Shown here piece after piece: positions 747 to 13,198 of a DNA stretch of 13,198 nt. Position 1 is the stretch's first letter. Each line of letters begins with the position of its first letter. Below the pieces are notes generated by a model. It had not been told where the DNA came from and did no database searches. It saw only the letters and a list, made by a program, of their open reading frames with translations. Origin of the DNA: Synergistaceae bacterium (lineage in GTDB: Bacteria; Synergistota; Synergistia; Synergistales; Aminobacteriaceae). Made by a program: the position numbers and the translations under genes. The stretch covers positions 1-13,198 of the forward strand of contig JAFTBT010000174.1 of the NCBI GenBank assembly GCA_017455085.1, given 5' to 3'.

Positions 747-1700
747 CTATAGTGCTTTCACGTGAACAGTAACTTTTTCGCCGAACTGTGCGTATTCATT
801 CCATCGGCCAAGTATGATTTCAGGCAATGATGGGACATTCACATCGTCAATGCTTAATGGCAGGTTAACATCATAATCGTCAATAAAGCTGTATTTACTG
901 CGCAGGACATACGTAAACTCAAACAGGTCACAAAATTTCTTGTGTCCGAACGAAATATAATGACCGTTGTTGTTCGCGTGAATGTGTACAAGCTGGTGTG
1001 TCCGGTTGAGCTTCCTGAATACCTCAAGCACAAGTTCAGGGTTTGTGTGGCCTGGTATTCCGTGAAACTCGAACGTCATTTGTCCGAACTGCGAAAGAGT
1101 CTCGGAGCTTACTTGCGATAAGAATCCCCATTCCGCGCCCTCAACATCCATCTTGAGAATCATGTTGCGTGTATTCTCGTGGTGATTAGCATGTATCAGC
1201 TCATCAAGAGTCTTTAGCCTGTTGTCCTGCGTTACTCCGTCAGATATGCCGAATCTGCTCCAGTGAAAGTGGGAATTTTCTTCAGGCAGTCCGTTAATCG
1301 TATGATCATACATGAAAATATCATACCCTCTTGAAACCATATCCTTATCCCACGAAACATCACTGCTGATACCGAAAGAGTAAGCTATGCCACCATCGTG
1401 AAAGTCATCAAGTAGAATATATCCGCCGTCATGTTTTTTGCCTGTCCTGACGACTTCAAAGCCATCAACCTTTGCGATATGCAGAAGTTTTTGAAGTTCC
1501 TCGTAATACTCCCTTGTGGTTATAATATCGAAGTGCTTCACAAAATCATCAGGTTTTACTAAATTCTTCATGGGTAACATCCACAGCATAAGAGCTGCCG
1601 CCTTGAAGTAGTTACCTTGAATGTACTGCGTATAAACTAGATTATGCAACAAAGGACTGCGGCCGATGATTTTCTTAGTCAGAGTTGTAATAATGCTCAT
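747..1700 (-). CDS. FkbM-type SAM-dependent methyltransferase, paralogue 1
   Basis: Predicted S-adenosylmethionine-dependent methyltransferase of the FkbM/Methyltransf_21-like group, 317 residues. Members of this group often O-methylate sugars of surface glycans or secondary metabolites; the substrate here is unknown. Visible signs are GGYILLDDF (residues 92-100), AYSFGISSDVSWD (106-118) in the place of the SAM-binding glycine-rich motif, an acidic strand end at MYDHT (130-134), and KMDVEGAEW (183-191), the FkbM hallmark. A conserved HANNNG follows at 241-246. The first 50 residues are not shared with the sister protein and contain a mildly hydrophobic stretch (YFKAAALMLWMLPM, 31-44), perhaps a membrane or partner contact. 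The ATG at 1698-1700 has GGGAG about 9 nt upstream. From the ITTxEYY motif to the C-terminus it aligns without gaps to the product of 2011-2865, so the two are tandem duplicates. Family is secure, function inferred. Confidence 0.82.
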   Translation of the reverse strand: MSIITTLTKKIIGRSPLLHNLVYTQYIQGNYFKAAALMLWMLPMKNLVKPDDFVKHFDIITTREYYEELQKLLHIAKVDGFEVVRTGKKHDGGYILLDDFHDGGIAYSFGISSDVSWDKDMVSRGYDIFMYDHTINGLPEENSHFHWSRFGISDGVTQDNRLKTLDELIHANHHENTRNMILKMDVEGAEWGFLSQVSSETLSQFGQMTFEFHGIPGHTNPELVLEVFRKLNRTHQLVHIHANNNGHYISFGHKKFCDLFEFTYVLRSKYSFIDDYDVNLPLSIDDVNVPSLPEIILGRWNEYAQFGEKVTVHVKAL

Positions 1701-2010: not shown

Positions 2011-2865
2011 CTAGAACGCTTTCAAGCTAACAGTCAGCCTTTCACCAATCTGTGCATCATCATTCCACCGGCCCAACTCAACTTCCGGCAATGATGGGAA
2101 ATTAGCATCATCTATACTCAGTGGCAGATTCACATCATACTTCTCATTCAAGTTGTATTTACTGCGCAACACATACGACAATTCCGGAGAATCACTGAAA
2201 ATCTTATCCCCAAAAGAAATATACGCACCGTTGTTATTCGCGTGCATGTGTATAAGCTGGTGAGTCTGGTTGAGCTTCCTGAATACCGACAGCACTAGTT
2301 CAGGGTTCGGATGGCTTAAGAGTGTATGAAACTCAAACGTCATCTGCGAAAACTGCGAAAGTGTCTCTGAACTTACCTGCTCAAAAAATCCCCATTCCGC
2401 TCCCTCAACATCCATCTTCAGAATCATGTTCTGCTTGGCCTCGTGGTGATTAGCCCTGATAAGTTCGTCAAGAGTCTTCAGCCTGTCGTCCTGAGTTACT
2501 CCGTCAGCAATACCCAGTTTTTCCCAGTGGAAATGTGAATTTTCTTCGGGCAGTTTGTCAATCGTGTGGTCATACATGAAGACATCATAACCGCGTAAAG
2601 CCATATCCTTATCCCACGAAACATCATCACATATCCCGAATGAATATGCTACATCTCCGGCGTGAAAGTCATCCAGCATGATATACCCACCGTCATAGCG
2701 TTTGCCTGTTCGGATAAGGTCAAAGCCCTCAACTTTAGCGATATGCAGCAAGCTATGAAGTTCCCTGTAATATTCCGGAGTAGTGATGATCTCCTGAGTT
2801 CTGACCGGATGATTCATGAGCTTACGCAAGAAATCTCCAGCAATATCCTTTAGAGTGCTAGGCAT
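2011..2865 (-). CDS. FkbM-type SAM-dependent methyltransferase, paralogue 2
   Basis: Second copy of the FkbM-type methyltransferase, 284 residues. It shows the same landmarks: GGYIMLDDF (residues 59-67), AYSFGICDDVSWD (73-85), MYDHT (97-101), KMDVEGAEW (150-158) and HANNNG. Its N-terminus is about 33 residues shorter than the sister protein and lacks the hydrophobic stretch. By eye about two thirds or more of positions agree across the common part, with no gaps, so the two arose by tandem duplication and then diverged. Differences cluster in HTLLSH versus HGIPGH after EFH and in the FSDSPELS region, which could change acceptor choice. The ATG at 2863-2865 has GGAGGG (2873-2878) 7 nt upstream. 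It has its own consensus-like promoter and terminator, so it is a single-gene unit although it follows the sugar dehydrogenase. A role in glycan methylation is inferred from family and neighbour. Confidence 0.82.
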   Translation of the reverse strand: MPSTLKDIAGDFLRKLMNHPVRTQEIITTPEYYRELHSLLHIAKVEGFDLIRTGKRYDGGYIMLDDFHAGDVAYSFGICDDVSWDKDMALRGYDVFMYDHTIDKLPEENSHFHWEKLGIADGVTQDDRLKTLDELIRANHHEAKQNMILKMDVEGAEWGFFEQVSSETLSQFSQMTFEFHTLLSHPNPELVLSVFRKLNQTHQLIHMHANNNGAYISFGDKIFSDSPELSYVLRSKYNLNEKYDVNLPLSIDDANFPSLPEVELGRWNDDAQIGERLTVSLKAF

Positions 2866-2979: not shown

Positions 2980-4308
2980 TCACAAAACCTCTATGTTGTG
3001 TCTGGGTGCAATATCCTTCATCACGTTCTTGAGGTCAAATACTGTCTTAGCGTTCGCCTGTACCATCCCGTAATCTACATCATGGTGAGCCGCCGTAATC
3101 ATCACCAAGTCATAGCTGCCTACAACTTCAGGATTAAGCTCCGGAATACTCTTCCCCTCCATCCCGAAAACATTCCTGAACTCCGGCACAAACGAGTCGT
3201 AATACTCAACCTCTGCCCCTACCGCTCGAAGCTCCTTCATCACACGTATAGCCGGACTCTCCCGATAGTCAGCTACGTCATTCTTGTACGCTATCCCAAG
3301 CTGAAGAATCCTCGCACCGTTGATGGCCTTCTTCTGCCTGTTCAGGATATGCATAGCCCTGTCCACACAGTACTCCGGCTGTGAGTCATTGATCACCATG
3401 CTGTTCTCGATGAGCGTCGTGTGAAAACCGAACTCCCTCGCCTTCCACGTCAGGTAATACGGGTCTAACGGTATGCAGTGTCCTCCGAGTCCAGGCCCGG
3501 GATAAAATGCCTGAAAACCATACGGCTTAGTCCTCGCGGCTTCGATCACTTCCCAAATAGATATACCCATCTTGTGGCAGAGTCTGGCAAGCTCATTCAC
3601 GAGGCCGATATTAATATTCCTGTATGTGTTCTCCAGAATCTTCTCCATCTCCGCAACAGCAGGACTCGACACCGTATATATCTCCCCATCAAGTACTGCA
3701 CTGTACATCGCGGAAATCACTTCTGCTGCGTCTTGGCCTATAGCTCCGACAACTTTCGGGGTATTTCTGGTGTTATAGAGCTTATTTCCCGGGTCTACCC
3801 TTTCCGGACTGAAGCCCAAGTAAAAATCTTCACCGCACTTGAGTCCGCTGATGCCCTCGATCAACGGCCGCAAAAGCTCTTCTGTCGTGCCGGGATATGT
3901 CGTAGATTCCAGTACTACCATTGTGCGGGGCTTGAGGTACTTCGCCACAGACTCGGCTGACTCTTTCACGTAGGTAATATCTGGTTCTTGGTGAACGTCC
4001 AGCGGAGTTGGGACACATATCGCTACAAAATCTACTTCACTGATTCTGCTGAAGTCCGTTGTAGCAGATAGTGCCCCCCCCCCAGTACGTACTATTGCGG
4101 ATAACTCAGCATCCACTACATCGCCTATATAGTTATGCCCGGCGTTCACACTGTCAACTTTCCACTTCCTGATGTCAAAGCCGATAGTCCTGAATCCAGC
4201 TTTTGCCTTCTCCACAGCAAGAGGCAGTCCCACATATCCCAAACCTACGACTCCAGCAACTAGAGTCTTATCGTGAATCTTGCGCAGTAATTCTTCCTTC
4301 ATGTTCAT
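2980..4308 (-). CDS. UDP-N-acetylhexosamine 6-dehydrogenase (WecC/WbpA type)
   Basis: NAD-dependent nucleotide-sugar dehydrogenase that oxidises C6 of a UDP-sugar to a uronic acid, supplying surface polysaccharide or glycan synthesis. Numbered from a GTG at 4315-4317, it shows the NAD-binding GVVGLGYVGLPLA (residues 22-34), CVPTPLD (96-102), ESTTYPGTTEELL, GFSPERVDPGN, NTYRNINI and the catalytic-cysteine motif GLGGHCIPLDPYYL. These fit the UDP-GlcNAc/UDP-ManNAc dehydrogenase branch better than the UDP-glucose branch; the exact substrate is not certain. That GTG lies inside the AGGAG (4317-4321), so the ATG at 4306-4308, 8 nt past it, is preferred; the ATG at 4300-4302 is also possible. The gene starts 12 bp after the upstream stop codon, so it is probably co-transcribed with it. 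A ten-G run (4083-4074) encodes Gly-Gly-Gly at residues 79-81. The frame is intact as read, but a one-base change either way would hit a stop within about 20 codons. Confidence 0.9.
   Translation of the reverse strand: MNMKEELLRKIHDKTLVAGVVGLGYVGLPLAVEKAKAGFRTIGFDIRKWKVDSVNAGHNYIGDVVDAELSAIVRTGGGALSATTDFSRISEVDFVAICVPTPLDVHQEPDITYVKESAESVAKYLKPRTMVVLESTTYPGTTEELLRPLIEGISGLKCGEDFYLGFSPERVDPGNKLYNTRNTPKVVGAIGQDAAEVISAMYSAVLDGEIYTVSSPAVAEMEKILENTYRNINIGLVNELARLCHKMGISIWEVIEAARTKPYGFQAFYPGPGLGGHCIPLDPYYLTWKAREFGFHTTLIENSMVINDSQPEYCVDRAMHILNRQKKAINGARILQLGIAYKNDVADYRESPAIRVMKELRAVGAEVEYYDSFVPEFRNVFGMEGKSIPELNPEVVGSYDLVMITAAHHDVDYGMVQANAKTVFDLKNVMKDIAPRHNIEVL
4074..4083 (+). repeat. Homopolymer C10 (G10 in the coding strand)
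   Basis: Ten consecutive C on the plus strand read as ten G in the dehydrogenase gene. With ten, the frame continues into ALSATTDF, the segment expected from the family. With nine, a TAG at 4034-4032 would end translation. With eleven, a TGA at 4039-4037 would. Poly-G/C tracts of this length in surface-glycan genes are classic slipped-strand phase-variation sites. They are also a common place for sequencing errors. Confidence 0.97.
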
Positions 4309-4320
4309 GAAAATCACTCC

Positions 4321-4740
4321 TCATTTCATTTCCAGAGACTCCAGAATCTCACCCAATACTTCACCGTTATGTTCGACTCCTGTCCCGATTATCAGCAAAT
4401 ACATCTCTTCATCGCCGTCTATCACAGCGTAACTCACCCCGTTGTTGAACTCAAAGCTATATGCCCCTCCGTCTTCCGCTTCGTCCTTCACCGGAGCAGT
4501 ACCCTTCAGGTTCGCAGAGTACTCTTCCGCAAGTTCGGCTATACTCTTTCCGTGAGGGTCATCCGCAGTAATCGAGAGAGACGCAGATTTGTCCGGAGCT
4601 GTTACGGTTACAGCAATGCCATCTTCATTGACGCTCCAATCTTCCGGAACATCCAGCGAAAAATACCGGAACTCCTGTATGTCCGCACACGCAGGTAATG
4701 ACGCTAGCAACATCATAACCAAAACAGCAAACCCCTTCAT
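4321..4740 (-). CDS. Small exported protein, possible lipoprotein (DcrB/PsbP-like)
   Basis: 139 residues with a short N-terminal signal: a lysine at position 2, a hydrophobic core ([12 protein letters not shown], 4-15) and LPACAD at 15-20. It could be cut after ACA by signal peptidase I, or Cys18 could be a lipid-modified cysteine, though Pro at -2 is unusual for a lipobox. The mature part opens with [11 protein letters not shown] (27-37), [15 protein letters not shown] (44-58), and ends [11 protein letters not shown]. This resembles the DUF1795/DcrB and PsbP-like folds of about 130-170 residues; function in these is mostly unknown. The ATG overlaps the stop of the copper ATPase (ATGA, 4 bp), and a strong GGAGGTG (4757-4751) lies inside the ATPase gene, so translation is coupled. 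Its place directly behind a copper exporter could mean an envelope metal-handling role, but it has no His/Met-rich metal motif, so this is weak inference. Confidence 0.75.
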
Positions 4741-6992
4741 GATTTTGCAGCACCTCCGTTTTTGCCGCGTATGTTCACAAGATTCAGCCTCAACGCATTA
4801 GTCACCACACAGAAGCTCGACAGACTCATAGCCGCCGCTCCGAACATCGGGTCAAGTTTCCAGCCCCACAGCCCAGCCGCTAACGGTATCCCTATAACGT
4901 TGTACACAAACGCCCAGAAAAGATTCTCCCGTATGTTCCTGAGGGTCGCCCTGCTGAGTCTCACTGCCGCAGGTACATCAAGCAAGCTGCTCTTCATCAG
5001 CACAATATCCGCCGCATCTATCGCTATGTCCGTCCCTGCACCTATCGCTACGCCAATATCCGCCCTCGTCAGCGCAGGAGCATCGTTTATCCCGTCACCG
5101 ACCATCGCCACACGTCCGGAAGCCTGAAGCTCACGAATCACGCTCTCTTTTCCGTCAGGCAGCACCCCAGCAATCACGTAATCTACTCCTGCTTGTGTCC
5201 CAATAGCTTTTGCAGTTCTCTCGTTGTCTCCGGTGAGCATCACTACTTTCACGCCAAGCTCCCGAAGCTCCTTCACGGCCTGCTGACTGTCGGGCTTGAT
5301 CGTATCAGCAACAGCAATAATCCCCAGCAGTTCATCATCACGCGCAAACATCAGCGGAGTCTTCCCTTCCTCTGCGAATCTCTGTGCCTCACGTGAATAT
5401 CTCTCCTCCACAGAAATCTTCTCCCCGATAAATTTCACACTGCCTCCAGTGAGTACAGAGTCGTTGCCGAGTTTTGCAGTGAGTCCATTTCCGGGAAGTG
5501 CCTGAAAATCCTTCACGTCATGCGCCGAAATCTTCTGCTCCTGTGCATATCCGGCTATAGCTTTTGCTAATGGATGCTCGCTCTTGGCCTCCAGTGAGTA
5601 CGCAAACGAAATCAGCTCATCCTCCATCACGTCCCCAGCAGTGAGGATGTCCGTAACCTTAGGCTCTCCGCTGGTGATAGTTCCTGTTTTGTCGAGGGCA
5701 GCTATCGTGATTTTCCCTGCCTGTTCGAGCGATGAGGCTGTCTTGAAGAGTATTCCGTTCTTCGCGCCGACACCATTACCGACCATAATTGCAACAGGTG
5801 TAGCCAGTCCCAAAGCACACGGGCAGCTTATCACTAACACCGCTATTCCGTACGAGAGTGCTTCACCGAAGGGCTTACCCGCAAAAATCATCCAGCCTGC
5901 AACCACAAGCACAGCTATTCCGATCACAGCAGGCACAAATACTCCGCAGACCTTATCAGCAATATTCGCAATGGGAGCTTTCGTAGCGGCTGCATCACTG
6001 ACCATCCGGATAATCTGTGAAAGTGTGGTATCTTGGCCGACACGTACAGCCTCGCACTTGATGTACCCCGACTGATTCACCGTAGCTGCCGAGACGGAAT
6101 CCCCTGCGATTTTGTCGACAGGTATGCTCTCTCCGGTGAGGGCTGACTCGTTTACTGCGGTACTGCCCTCAAGAATCACGCCGTCAACAGGAATATTTTC
6201 GCCCGGCCTCACGACAAAAACACTGCCTCGCTGTACCTGCTCGATAGGCACAGTAACTTCTTGGCCGTTGCGGAGAATAGTTGCGGTCTTTGGCGATAAC
6301 TTCATGAGGGATTTCAGCGCGTCAGTGGTGCGGCCTTTTGAGCGGGCTTCGAGCATTTTTCCGATAGTTATCAGCGTGAGAATCATACCTGCCGACTCAA
6401 AATAGAAGTCGTGAACTGTGAATGCATTTGTTGGGGTGGTCATCACGAACAACACGAATACACTCCATGCGAACGAGGAGAATGACCCCATAGCTACAAG
6501 AGTGTCCATGTTAGGCGCGAGGTGCATTAGTGATGTGAAGCCGGACACGAAAAATTTCTGGTTGATGATCATGATGATTCCGGCAAAGAGTAATTGTGCT
6601 ATGCCCTGAGCTACTGGGTTGTGTGCAAAGAATGCAGGCAATGGCAGACTCAGCATATGCCCCATAGAGAAGTACATTAGTGCGAGTAGAAAGACTATTG
6701 ACGTGAGGAGCCTGCGCTTGAGGCGTGGGGTTTCGTGGTCGGTGAGGGAGTCTGCTTCCTGTGAGTGTGTGGCAGAAATTACGGGTTCGGGAGTCTTGAG
6801 GGATGCACCGTAGCCGGCCTTCTCGACTGCAGCGATGATGTCCGAGACCTTTGCGGTGCCTTCGACGCTCATGGAGTTAGTGAGGAGACTGACTGCGCAG
6901 GAGGTGACTCCCGGAAGTTTTTTGACGACACGTTCGACTCTCGCTGAACATGCCGCACAGCTCATACCTGTAACGTTGTATATATCCGGCAT
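4737..6992 (-). CDS. copA: Cu(I)-exporting P1B-type ATPase
   Basis: Heavy-metal P-type ATPase that pumps Cu(I) out of the cytoplasm, 751 residues, full length for the family. It has one N-terminal heavy-metal-associated domain with GMSCAAC (residues 9-15). TGES of the actuator domain is at 286-289, and the CPC metal site in transmembrane segment 6 at 390-392. The phosphorylated aspartate is D434 in DKTGT, HP is at 473-474, TGDN at 587-590 and GDGINDAP at 632-639. The last two membrane segments carry YN (697-698) and MSLSS (722-726), residues that accompany CPC in the Cu(I) subgroup. About eight membrane segments are visible. The ATG at 6990-6992 has AAAAGGAG (7008-7001) 8 nt upstream. A TATAAT at 7040-7035 just upstream could serve as -10, but no good -35 or CueR/CsoR/CopY operator is recognisable. 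It appears to head a unit with the small exported protein and the sugar dehydrogenase. Silver export is possible too. Confidence 0.95.
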
Positions 6993-11202: not shown

Positions 11203-12897
11203 TTAGAACTCGGAGAAATATACCATACACTTATCATTCAGAGCACGATATATATTCATCACGGCTTCCACACTGAGGCAGGTATCTTCAGTAATCTCGT
11301 GTACCTGTCTCTTCCCGTCAGCAAGCAGCAATAGTTCAGCGTCCACTCCCGAAACTCTGCATATCCCTTCGCTCACACTATCACCGTCAATCACGTACTC
11401 GCTCATAGTCCGAACCGGGTAGCTCCATAAATTACACTCCTGCTCTTCGGGCTTCAGGTGCCTCATGAACTCCATAATATACGGGTAATTTCTCCATGCG
11501 TTCAGCCAGCTGTGATTCACTATCCGGCCTGATGCAATATGCTCTGCGTTCCTGAGCAGTTCGTCCTTCGTGGTGTATGCTGCCTCGTGAATATAGTGCT
11601 GCCTAAGTTCCGCGTCAAATCTCCGCTTGGCCGAGACTATATCGTTTGCGGTGAGGGCTTCCGTCTGAATCACTGCCTCCCGCATCGTGATCACCGAGTG
11701 CTGCAATCTCCTGCGGTCTATACACATCCCGTAGCGTTCCGGTGCGTGAGTTATGGGTGTCCCGTGATATGGCGCAAAGAATACCGTGTTGAGCTCGACT
11801 ATTCCGCGTCCTGCTGTGATTAATTTTTTTGCATGGGCTATGCTCTCGGATAGTGTCTCCTCGCTCTCGAAAGCTCCGCCGATAATGTAGTTCCCCTCCA
11901 CTCGGTGAAGTCCCGCAGATTTGCACTCACTCACCACGTCAACAATCATCTCCGGAGTTATGCGCTTGTTGTAGGCCTCTAGGACTCTCCGGCTTCCGCT
12001 CTCTATGCCTAACTGCACAGCAATCAGCCCAGAATCCGCCATGACGTGAAGCATTTCGGGATTGTCCCACAACGTCAGTACATGAGCCTCACATGTCCAC
12101 AGCAGACCCGAATCCTTCATGTACACGCAAAATTCTCGCACCCTCTCAGCACTCAGCGTAAATGTGTCGTCATAAATATTCACGTACTTCAACGAATGAT
12201 TCTCTGCTCTGACGCTCTCGATCTCGGCTATGACGTTCGCAATGCTCCGGAGACGCACGGACTTTGACGCAGCCCCCTCAAAACAGAAAGCGCAGTGATA
12301 CGGGCAGCCCCTGCCTGTGAGGATACCTATTGCCTCAGTTGAGCGGAAATCTTTGCTGAGGCTGTTAGCTTTGTCCGGAAAAGGTATAGAGTCCAAATCG
12401 TGAATCAGTGGCGCAGGAGGTGTTACCCTGAATTTTCCTGAAGAGTCTACGTACTTGATAGCGGTAATATTTTCTTGTGTGCCTATGCCGTCAACGATTA
12501 AGCGCAAGAGTCCCAGCACTGCCGATTCTCCCTCACCGTAGACCACGTAATCACACCCCGACTCACGCAAAAACTCCTCACCGAGTGAATACGCTTCAGG
12601 CCCTCCGACAATAACAGCAACGTCCGGCCAAGCAGCTTTTACCCAGCGGATAATATGCCCGGTAGTTACGCGGGTATCTGCTCCAACGTAGAAGCCAACG
12701 ACTCTCACGCCGTGATTCACGATTTCGCCGGAGATTATGCGTTTGGTGTCGAGTACGTCGCACGAGTAGACTTTTGCGCGAAAATCATACTTTGAGACAT
12801 ACGACGCTATTATGTGGCCGCCTAAGTATTCACGGAAAGAGCTGCTGATTTCTGATGAGCCGCGTGCTGCGTTCAGGAGGAGTAACTCATACTGCAT
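11203..12897 (-). CDS. Cobalamin-binding radical SAM protein with PqqD-like C-terminal tail
   Basis: 564-residue radical SAM enzyme of the B12-binding class. Residues 1 to about 150 form a Rossmann-type cobalamin-binding domain ending in VIVGGPEAYSLGEEFLR (95-111) and YVVYGEGESA (117-126). The lower-ligand DxHxxG motif is not seen, so cobalamin, if bound, would lack it, as in many members. The radical SAM core follows: RGCPYHCAFC (196-205) with cluster cysteines C198, C202 and C205, YDDTF (242-246), QLGIESGS (295-302) and NYIIGGAFESEET (336-348). After about 370 the sequence is family-specific. The last about 60 residues (SVSEGICRVSGVDAELLLLADG then HEITEDTCLSVEAVMNIYRALNDKCMVYF) resemble the winged-helix fold of PqqD-like peptide-binding domains. 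The ATG at 12895-12897 lies inside the preceding gene (11-bp overlap). Substrate unknown. Core identification is firm, the tail assignment tentative. Confidence 0.88.
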   Translation of the reverse strand: MQYELLLLNAARGSSEISSSFREYLGGHIIASYVSKYDFRAKVYSCDVLDTKRIISGEIVNHGVRVVGFYVGADTRVTTGHIIRWVKAAWPDVAVIVGGPEAYSLGEEFLRESGCDYVVYGEGESAVLGLLRLIVDGIGTQENITAIKYVDSSGKFRVTPPAPLIHDLDSIPFPDKANSLSKDFRSTEAIGILTGRGCPYHCAFCFEGAASKSVRLRSIANVIAEIESVRAENHSLKYVNIYDDTFTLSAERVREFCVYMKDSGLLWTCEAHVLTLWDNPEMLHVMADSGLIAVQLGIESGSRRVLEAYNKRITPEMIVDVVSECKSAGLHRVEGNYIIGGAFESEETLSESIAHAKKLITAGRGIVELNTVFFAPYHGTPITHAPERYGMCIDRRRLQHSVITMREAVIQTEALTANDIVSAKRRFDAELRQHYIHEAAYTTKDELLRNAEHIASGRIVNHSWLNAWRNYPYIMEFMRHLKPEEQECNLWSYPVRTMSEYVIDGDSVSEGICRVSGVDAELLLLADGKRQVHEITEDTCLSVEAVMNIYRALNDKCMVYFSEF

Positions 12898-13198
12898 TAT
12901 CGAGTCTCCGAAGAATCTCCCCGCGTTTCCTGAGTAAGTATGCTTTGTATTTCTTGATGCCGTCTTCGCAAAGGTAGTCCATGAACTTCACGAAGTCATA
13001 ACACATTAGGCCGTTGTGAGCGATACAGCCGCCGTTGCAGAAAGTCAGGTACTTGCAGCGTGTACACTCCTCACGAAGATTCTCGCTCCGTGAAGCAGCG
13101 AGTCTCTCCAGAATCCCGCGCCCCGAGTCCGTGATGCCTCCTGTGTGGACGTTGCCGAGAAGGTGAGTCTTGTCGTCCGCGAATCTTCCGCAGGGGTA
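12887..13198 (-). CDS. Radical SAM/SPASM protein, C-terminal part (5' end outside window)
   Basis: Only the last 103 residues are present; the reading frame is open to the right edge. They form a SPASM/twitch-type auxiliary iron-sulfur domain. A first cysteine, C3, is followed by LGNVHTGG (14-21), then CTRCKYLTFCNGGC (45-58), which is exactly the C-x2-C-x5-C-x3-C SPASM signature, with further cysteines at C66 and C77. SPASM radical SAM enzymes modify ribosomal peptides (PqqE-like, sactipeptide and related maturases), mature sulfatases, or act on small molecules. The radical SAM CxxxCxxC core must lie outside the window. The stop at 12889-12887 is inside the next gene, so the two radical SAM proteins are translationally coupled and probably work in one pathway. 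Confidence 0.88.
   Translation of the reverse strand, partial: YPCGRFADDKTHLLGNVHTGGITDSGRGILERLAASRSENLREECTRCKYLTFCNGGCIAHNGLMCYDFVKFMDYLCEDGIKKYKAYLLRKRGEILRRLDNAV

Follow-up and report, generated by a model that had tools for sequence, protein, structure and literature searches.

A candidate slipped-strand poly-G switch in a nucleotide-sugar dehydrogenase gene of a Synergistaceae-like bacterium

The type 3 capsule of Streptococcus pneumoniae undergoes phase variation by tandem duplications in cap3A. As in the locus presented here, the gene switched in that system is a nucleotide-sugar dehydrogenase, with tandem duplications in cap3A against a homopolymer in the 13,198-base stretch of DNA analysed (hereafter the window). 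Intragenic poly-G contingency loci are described in Campylobacter and Neisseria, for example C. jejuni cgtB and meningococcal hmbR (PMC6437147, PMC3786947). As far as the accessible parts of these papers go, the window locus resembles them in having a G run inside an ORF, in the truncation of the product when the run changes length, and in its presumed surface-glycan or surface function. It differs in its target, an enzyme of precursor-sugar synthesis instead of a transferase or a receptor, and in its host, an uncultured Synergistaceae-like bacterium in which the putative switch was read from sequence alone. For Akkermansia muciniphila, the available text of one paper reports long G or C runs in capsule and polysaccharide genes and suggests phase variation (PMC3048395). 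The window tract is likewise a long homopolymer in a glycan gene of a gut-type bacterium. The phylum and the genes are different, and out-of-frame sister alleles, which we describe below for the window gene, do not appear in that part of the Akkermansia paper. The slipped-strand kind of switch is well known. Among the matches listed from the open-licence PMC literature, we found no report of the locus, of the lineage or of such a switch in this host or at the nucleotide-sugar dehydrogenase step, and a search of that literature for phase variation together with Synergistaceae gave no paper.

The tract, its gene and the stop codons reached after a change in length were located as follows:

2980..4308, minus strand: nucleotide-sugar dehydrogenase gene, 442 aa, ON as read, with TIGR03026 and Pfam domains
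4074..4083, minus strand: G10 tract (C10 on the plus strand), spanning three GGG codons and the initial G of a GCA codon; the proposed slipped-strand switch
4032..4034, minus strand: stop codon for G9 (product of 91 aa), from the computed frame
4037..4039, minus strand: stop codon for G11 (product of 90 aa, ending in NGLQQNQ, an ending common to the natural proteins P0241 and P0242)

The original prediction had placed an uninterrupted ten-G run about 80 codons into an otherwise intact dehydrogenase gene. The window sequence confirmed its exact position. Counted from the ATG at 4306-4308, the run fills codons 76-78 and extends one base into codon 79; the stop codon of the gene is at 2980-2982, and an alternative GTG start is present at 4315-4317. 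The gene is indeed open over its full length. In the profile search its product scored 404 bits against TIGR03026 (cut-off 189.8), which makes it a member of this family, and PF03721, PF00984 and PF03720 were each above cut-off, in the three-domain layout of the family. The frame across the run reads V-R-T-G-G-G-A-L-S-A-T-T-D-F. From the tract lengths 4-14 that we computed, 4, 7, 10 and 13 were in frame. Loss or gain of one G cuts the 442-aa protein to 91 or 90 aa, and the recomputed stops fell where predicted. G10 is an uninterrupted long repeat within an ORF, as in simple-sequence-repeat phase-variable genes, and it is the sole run of at least nine bases in the window; the next longest were an A8 and a T7, and other G/C runs did not exceed six.

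Markov models of orders 1-3, built on the window without the run, expected 0.0027-0.0067 G10 tracts per window. The order-4 window model, resting on few counts, gave 7e-6, and models of orders 1-5 from the loci of 80 relatives gave 0.003-0.022 per window length. G10 is unusual, yet luck would produce such runs across a scan of many windows. The argument from length was dropped as too weak at expectations of 0.0027-0.022 per window. Because length is not compelling in a multi-window scan, the real evidence is the comparison with relatives.

A dehydrogenase relative was encoded on 239 stretches of the genome collection, and the best 80 of these were used. All 80 had a net two residues fewer at the tract site in the alignment, where their longest G run was three. 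The search of a protein database with the dehydrogenase scored 7996 proteins. Among the best 120 listed, the 119 besides the window's own all had 17 residues where the window has 19; they were 78-81% identical to the window protein, with the exception of P0036 (listed at 59%). The solved structures closest in sequence to the ON protein, the UDP-N-acetylmannosaminuronate-type dehydrogenases 4r16 and Cap5O (3ojl), were also a net two residues shorter in this stretch, as was 3g79. The repeat is therefore unexplained by conserved protein sequence, since two of its three glycines are missing in the relatives (80/80 loci, 119/119 proteins). According to the original prediction, a switch would be refuted if relatives used mixed codons for the same glycines; in the relatives the two extra glycines were absent altogether. 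The ancestral form was likely T-G-A, hence with at most GGGG. From the two residues fewer in all relatives we infer that the window gene gained about six G's and that the run is an expansion.

The structure was predicted from a 36-row alignment, with a mean pLDDT of 75.3. In the model, the extra glycines are part of the turn that links helix 66-74 to strand 80-83, and the local pLDDT was 74 for residues 61-70, 83 for residues 71-80 and 96 for residues 81-90. Judging from this model, the turn should tolerate the extra glycines of the ON form.

The 91-aa product predicted for G9 served as query in a search of 5.8 billion proteins, and the best 120 matches were listed. The best two were P0241 and P0242, each of 93 aa. 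Both stand for clusters known from their representatives, with 8 member sequences and a longest contig of 2591 bases for P0241, and 7 and 2819 bases for P0242. The first 78 residues of the window protein were 96% and 94% identical to them, respectively. After residue 78 they read GPLSNNGLQQNQ, followed by a stop, with the end AIVRKGGGGPLSNNGLQQNQ; in the window, the +1 frame terminates with YNGLQQNQ and a stop. Their tail codons were compatible with the family motif ALSATTDFSRIS in one of the 14 placements and shifts tried, and in a codon-by-codon check none of 20,000 shuffled tails could fit it. Because the tail decodes to this motif and the shuffles do not, P0241 and P0242 appear to derive from this same gene through a +1 shift at the run, with the family motif preserved in the frame that follows. 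Given an ON frame of ALSAT, the codons of the sisters can only be GCC CTC TCA GCA ACA, and four of these five differ from the window codons (GCA CTA TCT GCT ACA). The residue before the run is K in the sisters and T in the window. The glycine stretch appears to have been kept while both flanks changed. The sisters are known from protein, which does not reveal the third base of each glycine codon; the simplest reading is that they have G11 against the G10 of the window, or G12 if the preceding Lys is AAG. Different tract lengths between close strains had been named as a sign of switching in the original prediction, and the OFF-frame forms in sister lineages would amount to such a difference, at the protein level only and in a database where broken fragments are common.

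A third short protein, P0243 (81 aa), was set aside as a further OFF allele. Its LSLIHI end recurs elsewhere among the listed proteins, and we take it to resemble a sequencing adapter. P0243 is a ~90% relative ending near the tract position; contigs may break at the run, or this is a coincidence. The cluster of the window's own protein, P0001, is listed with 8 member sequences and 3 contigs and carries no information on stability.

We consider the tract to be probably a slipped-strand ON/OFF contingency locus of the Synergistaceae-like lineage. Polymerase slippage on the G run would add or remove single G's. Lengths of 7, 10 and 13 would give the full dehydrogenase (ON), and other lengths a stub of ~90 aa with only part of the NAD-binding domain (OFF). 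Because the extra glycines would sit in a tolerant turn, even a core enzyme gene could accommodate growth of the run. Without the enzyme, the cell would lack one uronic-type nucleotide sugar and every glycan using it would be altered, and the population would then hold mixed surface types. This reading takes P0241 and P0242 as presumably reversible slippage alleles and the sugar as presumably destined for the cell surface, and phage, host or protozoa may select for the switching.

The same tract and sisters could result from decay of a dispensable dehydrogenase gene, in which neutral slippage lengthened the run and the +1 alleles of the sisters are ordinary pseudogenes, fixed with no return. 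The OFF products do represent their clusters, and among the 120 listed proteins there was no full-length protein at 81%-100% identity to the window; the 8-member P0001 cluster could, however, hide full-length sister forms. Decay is unlikely, considering that the window gene has an open frame of 442 aa, shares 67-82% identity with 35 aligned relatives and retains C278, K223 and N227 of the invariant columns of that alignment, residues which we take to be catalytic. In the sisters, too, the sequence after the shift decodes to a conserved motif, over a short stretch of 12 residues.

Another explanation concerns the assemblies. Homopolymers are a weak point of assembly, and the tract may be real but of wrong assembled length in the window or in P0241 and P0242, in which case contigs cannot tell ON from OFF. 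Among the 120 listed short proteins, 58 ended in a stretch of more than 4 non-homologous residues; the breaks were scattered over many positions and lineages, and some tails were adapter-like. Because such frame-broken or adapter-ended fragments are common in the database, the OFF alleles P0241 and P0242 could be assembly errors. An assembly error is made less likely by the two clusters, one with 8 members and one with 7, since the representative of each is broken at the very residue of the run. Given also the frame of the window, open for 442 aa at G10, and the two extra glycines, which a wrong length leaves unexplained, we judge this account even less probable than decay. Finally, the tract could set a level of expression, if slippage of RNA polymerase or of the ribosome yielded some full-length enzyme from out-of-frame alleles. 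Transcript slippage is conceivable on 10-11 consecutive G's; no result of this analysis favours such level-setting, and we regard it as very improbable.

The switch proposed above, from ON to OFF by slippage, stands among genes of which four are relevant here:

4321..4740, minus strand: gene for a 139-aa protein, directly upstream of the dehydrogenase, with no Pfam or NCBIfam match
4737..6992, minus strand: copA-like P-type ATPase gene, upstream of the tract, with a 4-base overlap with the 139-aa gene
2011..2865, minus strand: FkbM-type methyltransferase gene, 114 bases downstream of the dehydrogenase (PF05050 above cut-off, TIGR01444 below)
747..1700, minus strand: second FkbM-type methyltransferase gene, a tandem paralogue (profile search and pairwise comparison)

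The stop of the 139-aa gene is 12 bases ahead of the dehydrogenase ATG, and the two genes are probably co-transcribed. The name copA-like is our assumption from the motifs of the protein; the gene order of the window presumably includes rpsB, copA, ybaB, recR, ispDF and tsaD types. The two FkbM-type paralogues, located between the dehydrogenase and rpsB, shared 73% identity over 264 aa.

The on/off reading of the original prediction emerged from the analysis strengthened. The accompanying claim, that the dehydrogenase is the last gene of its unit, is unsupported: between 2980 and 2865 the scan found no minus-strand terminator-like site, and this stretch folded no better than shuffles (z +1.46). 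Two minus-strand promoter-like sites were found in the gap between dehydrogenase and methyltransferase; in the whole scanned region such sites were no commoner than in shuffles (10 vs 10.6). It is possible that the dehydrogenase is last in its unit. With no terminator found in the gap, the downstream methyltransferase could be affected by switching. A polar effect on copA was never at issue, since copA is upstream of the tract.

The dehydrogenase stayed below the cut-offs of the UDP-N-acetylmannosamine dehydrogenase equivalogs (NF040825, 276.6/750 bits; NF008286, 231.5/459 bits). A UDP-GlcNAc 2-epimerase homologue was present in 24 of the 80 relatives' loci, in 19 of these 24 directly downstream of the dehydrogenase. 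These neighbours are a hint toward a UDP-ManNAc dehydrogenase, against the equivalog scores. No UDP-GlcNAc 2-epimerase was found beside the window dehydrogenase. The window copA, 139-aa and FkbM genes had matches in 0/80 relatives' loci, showing that the setting of the window dehydrogenase is its own.

Judging by record titles, the near relatives of the dehydrogenase were mostly from gut Clostridia. The TsaD of the window was compared with the genomes of 35 of the 80 loci; it was found in 34 of these 35 genomes with a dehydrogenase relative, the best long matches being 42-51%. For the 564-aa radical SAM protein at 11203-12897, the nearest organism-named relative was from a Synergistaceae bacterium (60%), with seven proteins lacking an organism name ranking closer; we refer to the host as Synergistaceae-like, a tentative placement. 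The mostly clostridial relatives, unlike the Synergistaceae-like host, suggest that the dehydrogenase was acquired by horizontal transfer. No dehydrogenase relative was confirmed in viral contigs. The radical SAM protein is of the B12-binding type, and there is an overlap between its start and the end of a second ORF (12887-13198). This ORF is cut by the window edge and has a Cys-rich C-terminal motif (CKYLTFCNGGC); perhaps the two form a peptide-modification pair.

In the 80 relatives' loci (556 kb), we counted 11 G/C runs of length 7, one of length 8 and ten of length 9-10. Four of these ten were C10 runs of two loci (L030, 1342-1351 and 6603-6612; L072, 2356-2365 and 6566-6575), which were set aside. 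They were rejected as switches, as their positions are close to the 3' ends of stop-to-stop ORFs and three of the four are followed by GCG. The sequences after them were GCGGACA (twice), GCGAACT and ACGGACA, perhaps pointing to a dispersed repeat element.

A Lachnospiraceae MAG (L011) had a G9 at 4564-4572 of its locus (1501-1509 of L108), in the UDP-GlcNAc 2-epimerase gene that immediately follows the dehydrogenase relative. The epimerase frame is broken exactly at this G9, and the partner gene looks OFF in this MAG. A second G9 was in frame within a gene for an AMP-binding enzyme. For the wecB-type tract of L011, no orthologue emerged among congeners: six genomes were covered, L011's own (G036) included, two of them had matches, and the one besides G036 was G061, at only 32-37% identity.

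Five whole genomes were picked for a run of 9 in their locus. Matches to nine G's (overlapping, both strands) numbered 29 for L011, 22 for L016, 47 for L067, 341 for L077 and 17 for L037. In the genomes of 45 other loci, L030 and L072 included, the number ranged from 0 to 149, with at least one match in 28/45; these genome counts cover 50 of the 80 loci. Many matches were found for L077 (G034, 341), L025 (G014, 149) and L020 (G010, 108), vs none in 17 of the 45 genomes, and these three are candidate multi-locus poly-G genomes.

Tracts of the five genomes were inspected in 30 loci (L081-L110), which after removal of seven shifted repeats gave 23 loci with 24 tracts; these came from the top of the listing for each genome and do not form a random sample. 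Pfam naming was done on 20 fragments, one per tract; L106, L107 (at 1501), L085 and L110 had no convincing gene across the tract. Thirteen of the 24 tracts were in or at typical glycan genes (Pfam above cut-off), as a raw count, and none of the sites showed variation in length. They comprised GT2, GT4, FkbM and hexapeptide transferase genes (two each), and one each of Bac_transf, epimerase, cytidylyltransferase, acyltransferase and FdtA. Without the four tracts used for selection (L103, L108, L099 and L105), the count was 10/20. Hexapeptide matches in L098 and L102 were below cut-off, and the remaining tracts were in AMP-binding, FrhB or unnamed genes, or had no convincing gene. The frame was kept across six of the 13 glycan-gene tracts and lost across seven. 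Several tracts were close to gene ends, either 3' (L087, L096, L097, L099, L105) or 5' (L089, L093), positions at which a frameshift might have less effect. Several gut genomes thus carry G9-G10 tracts in or beside surface-glycan genes, and these tracts, in frame or out of it, speak for the switch reading of the window tract.

Tentatively, and with somewhat less than even confidence, we propose that poly-G contingency loci are general in uncultured gut anaerobes beyond the classical pathogens (Clostridia, Gastranaerophilales and Synergistaceae-like bacteria), where they would diversify surface glycans through many switched genes per genome, the window switch acting at the precursor-sugar step. 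This wider poly-G pattern of gut genomes bears on a passage of a 2025 review, as far as its accessible text goes (PMC11868660). The expanded G run, the out-of-frame sisters and the many nine-G matches in some gut genomes with a related dehydrogenase, a good share of the sampled ones in or at glycan genes, make the proposal testable with existing metagenome reads. Such genes get split in metagenome protein catalogues, where OFF products appear as separate 93-aa proteins. If the proposal is true, one slippage event in the window lineage would change every glycan using that sugar.
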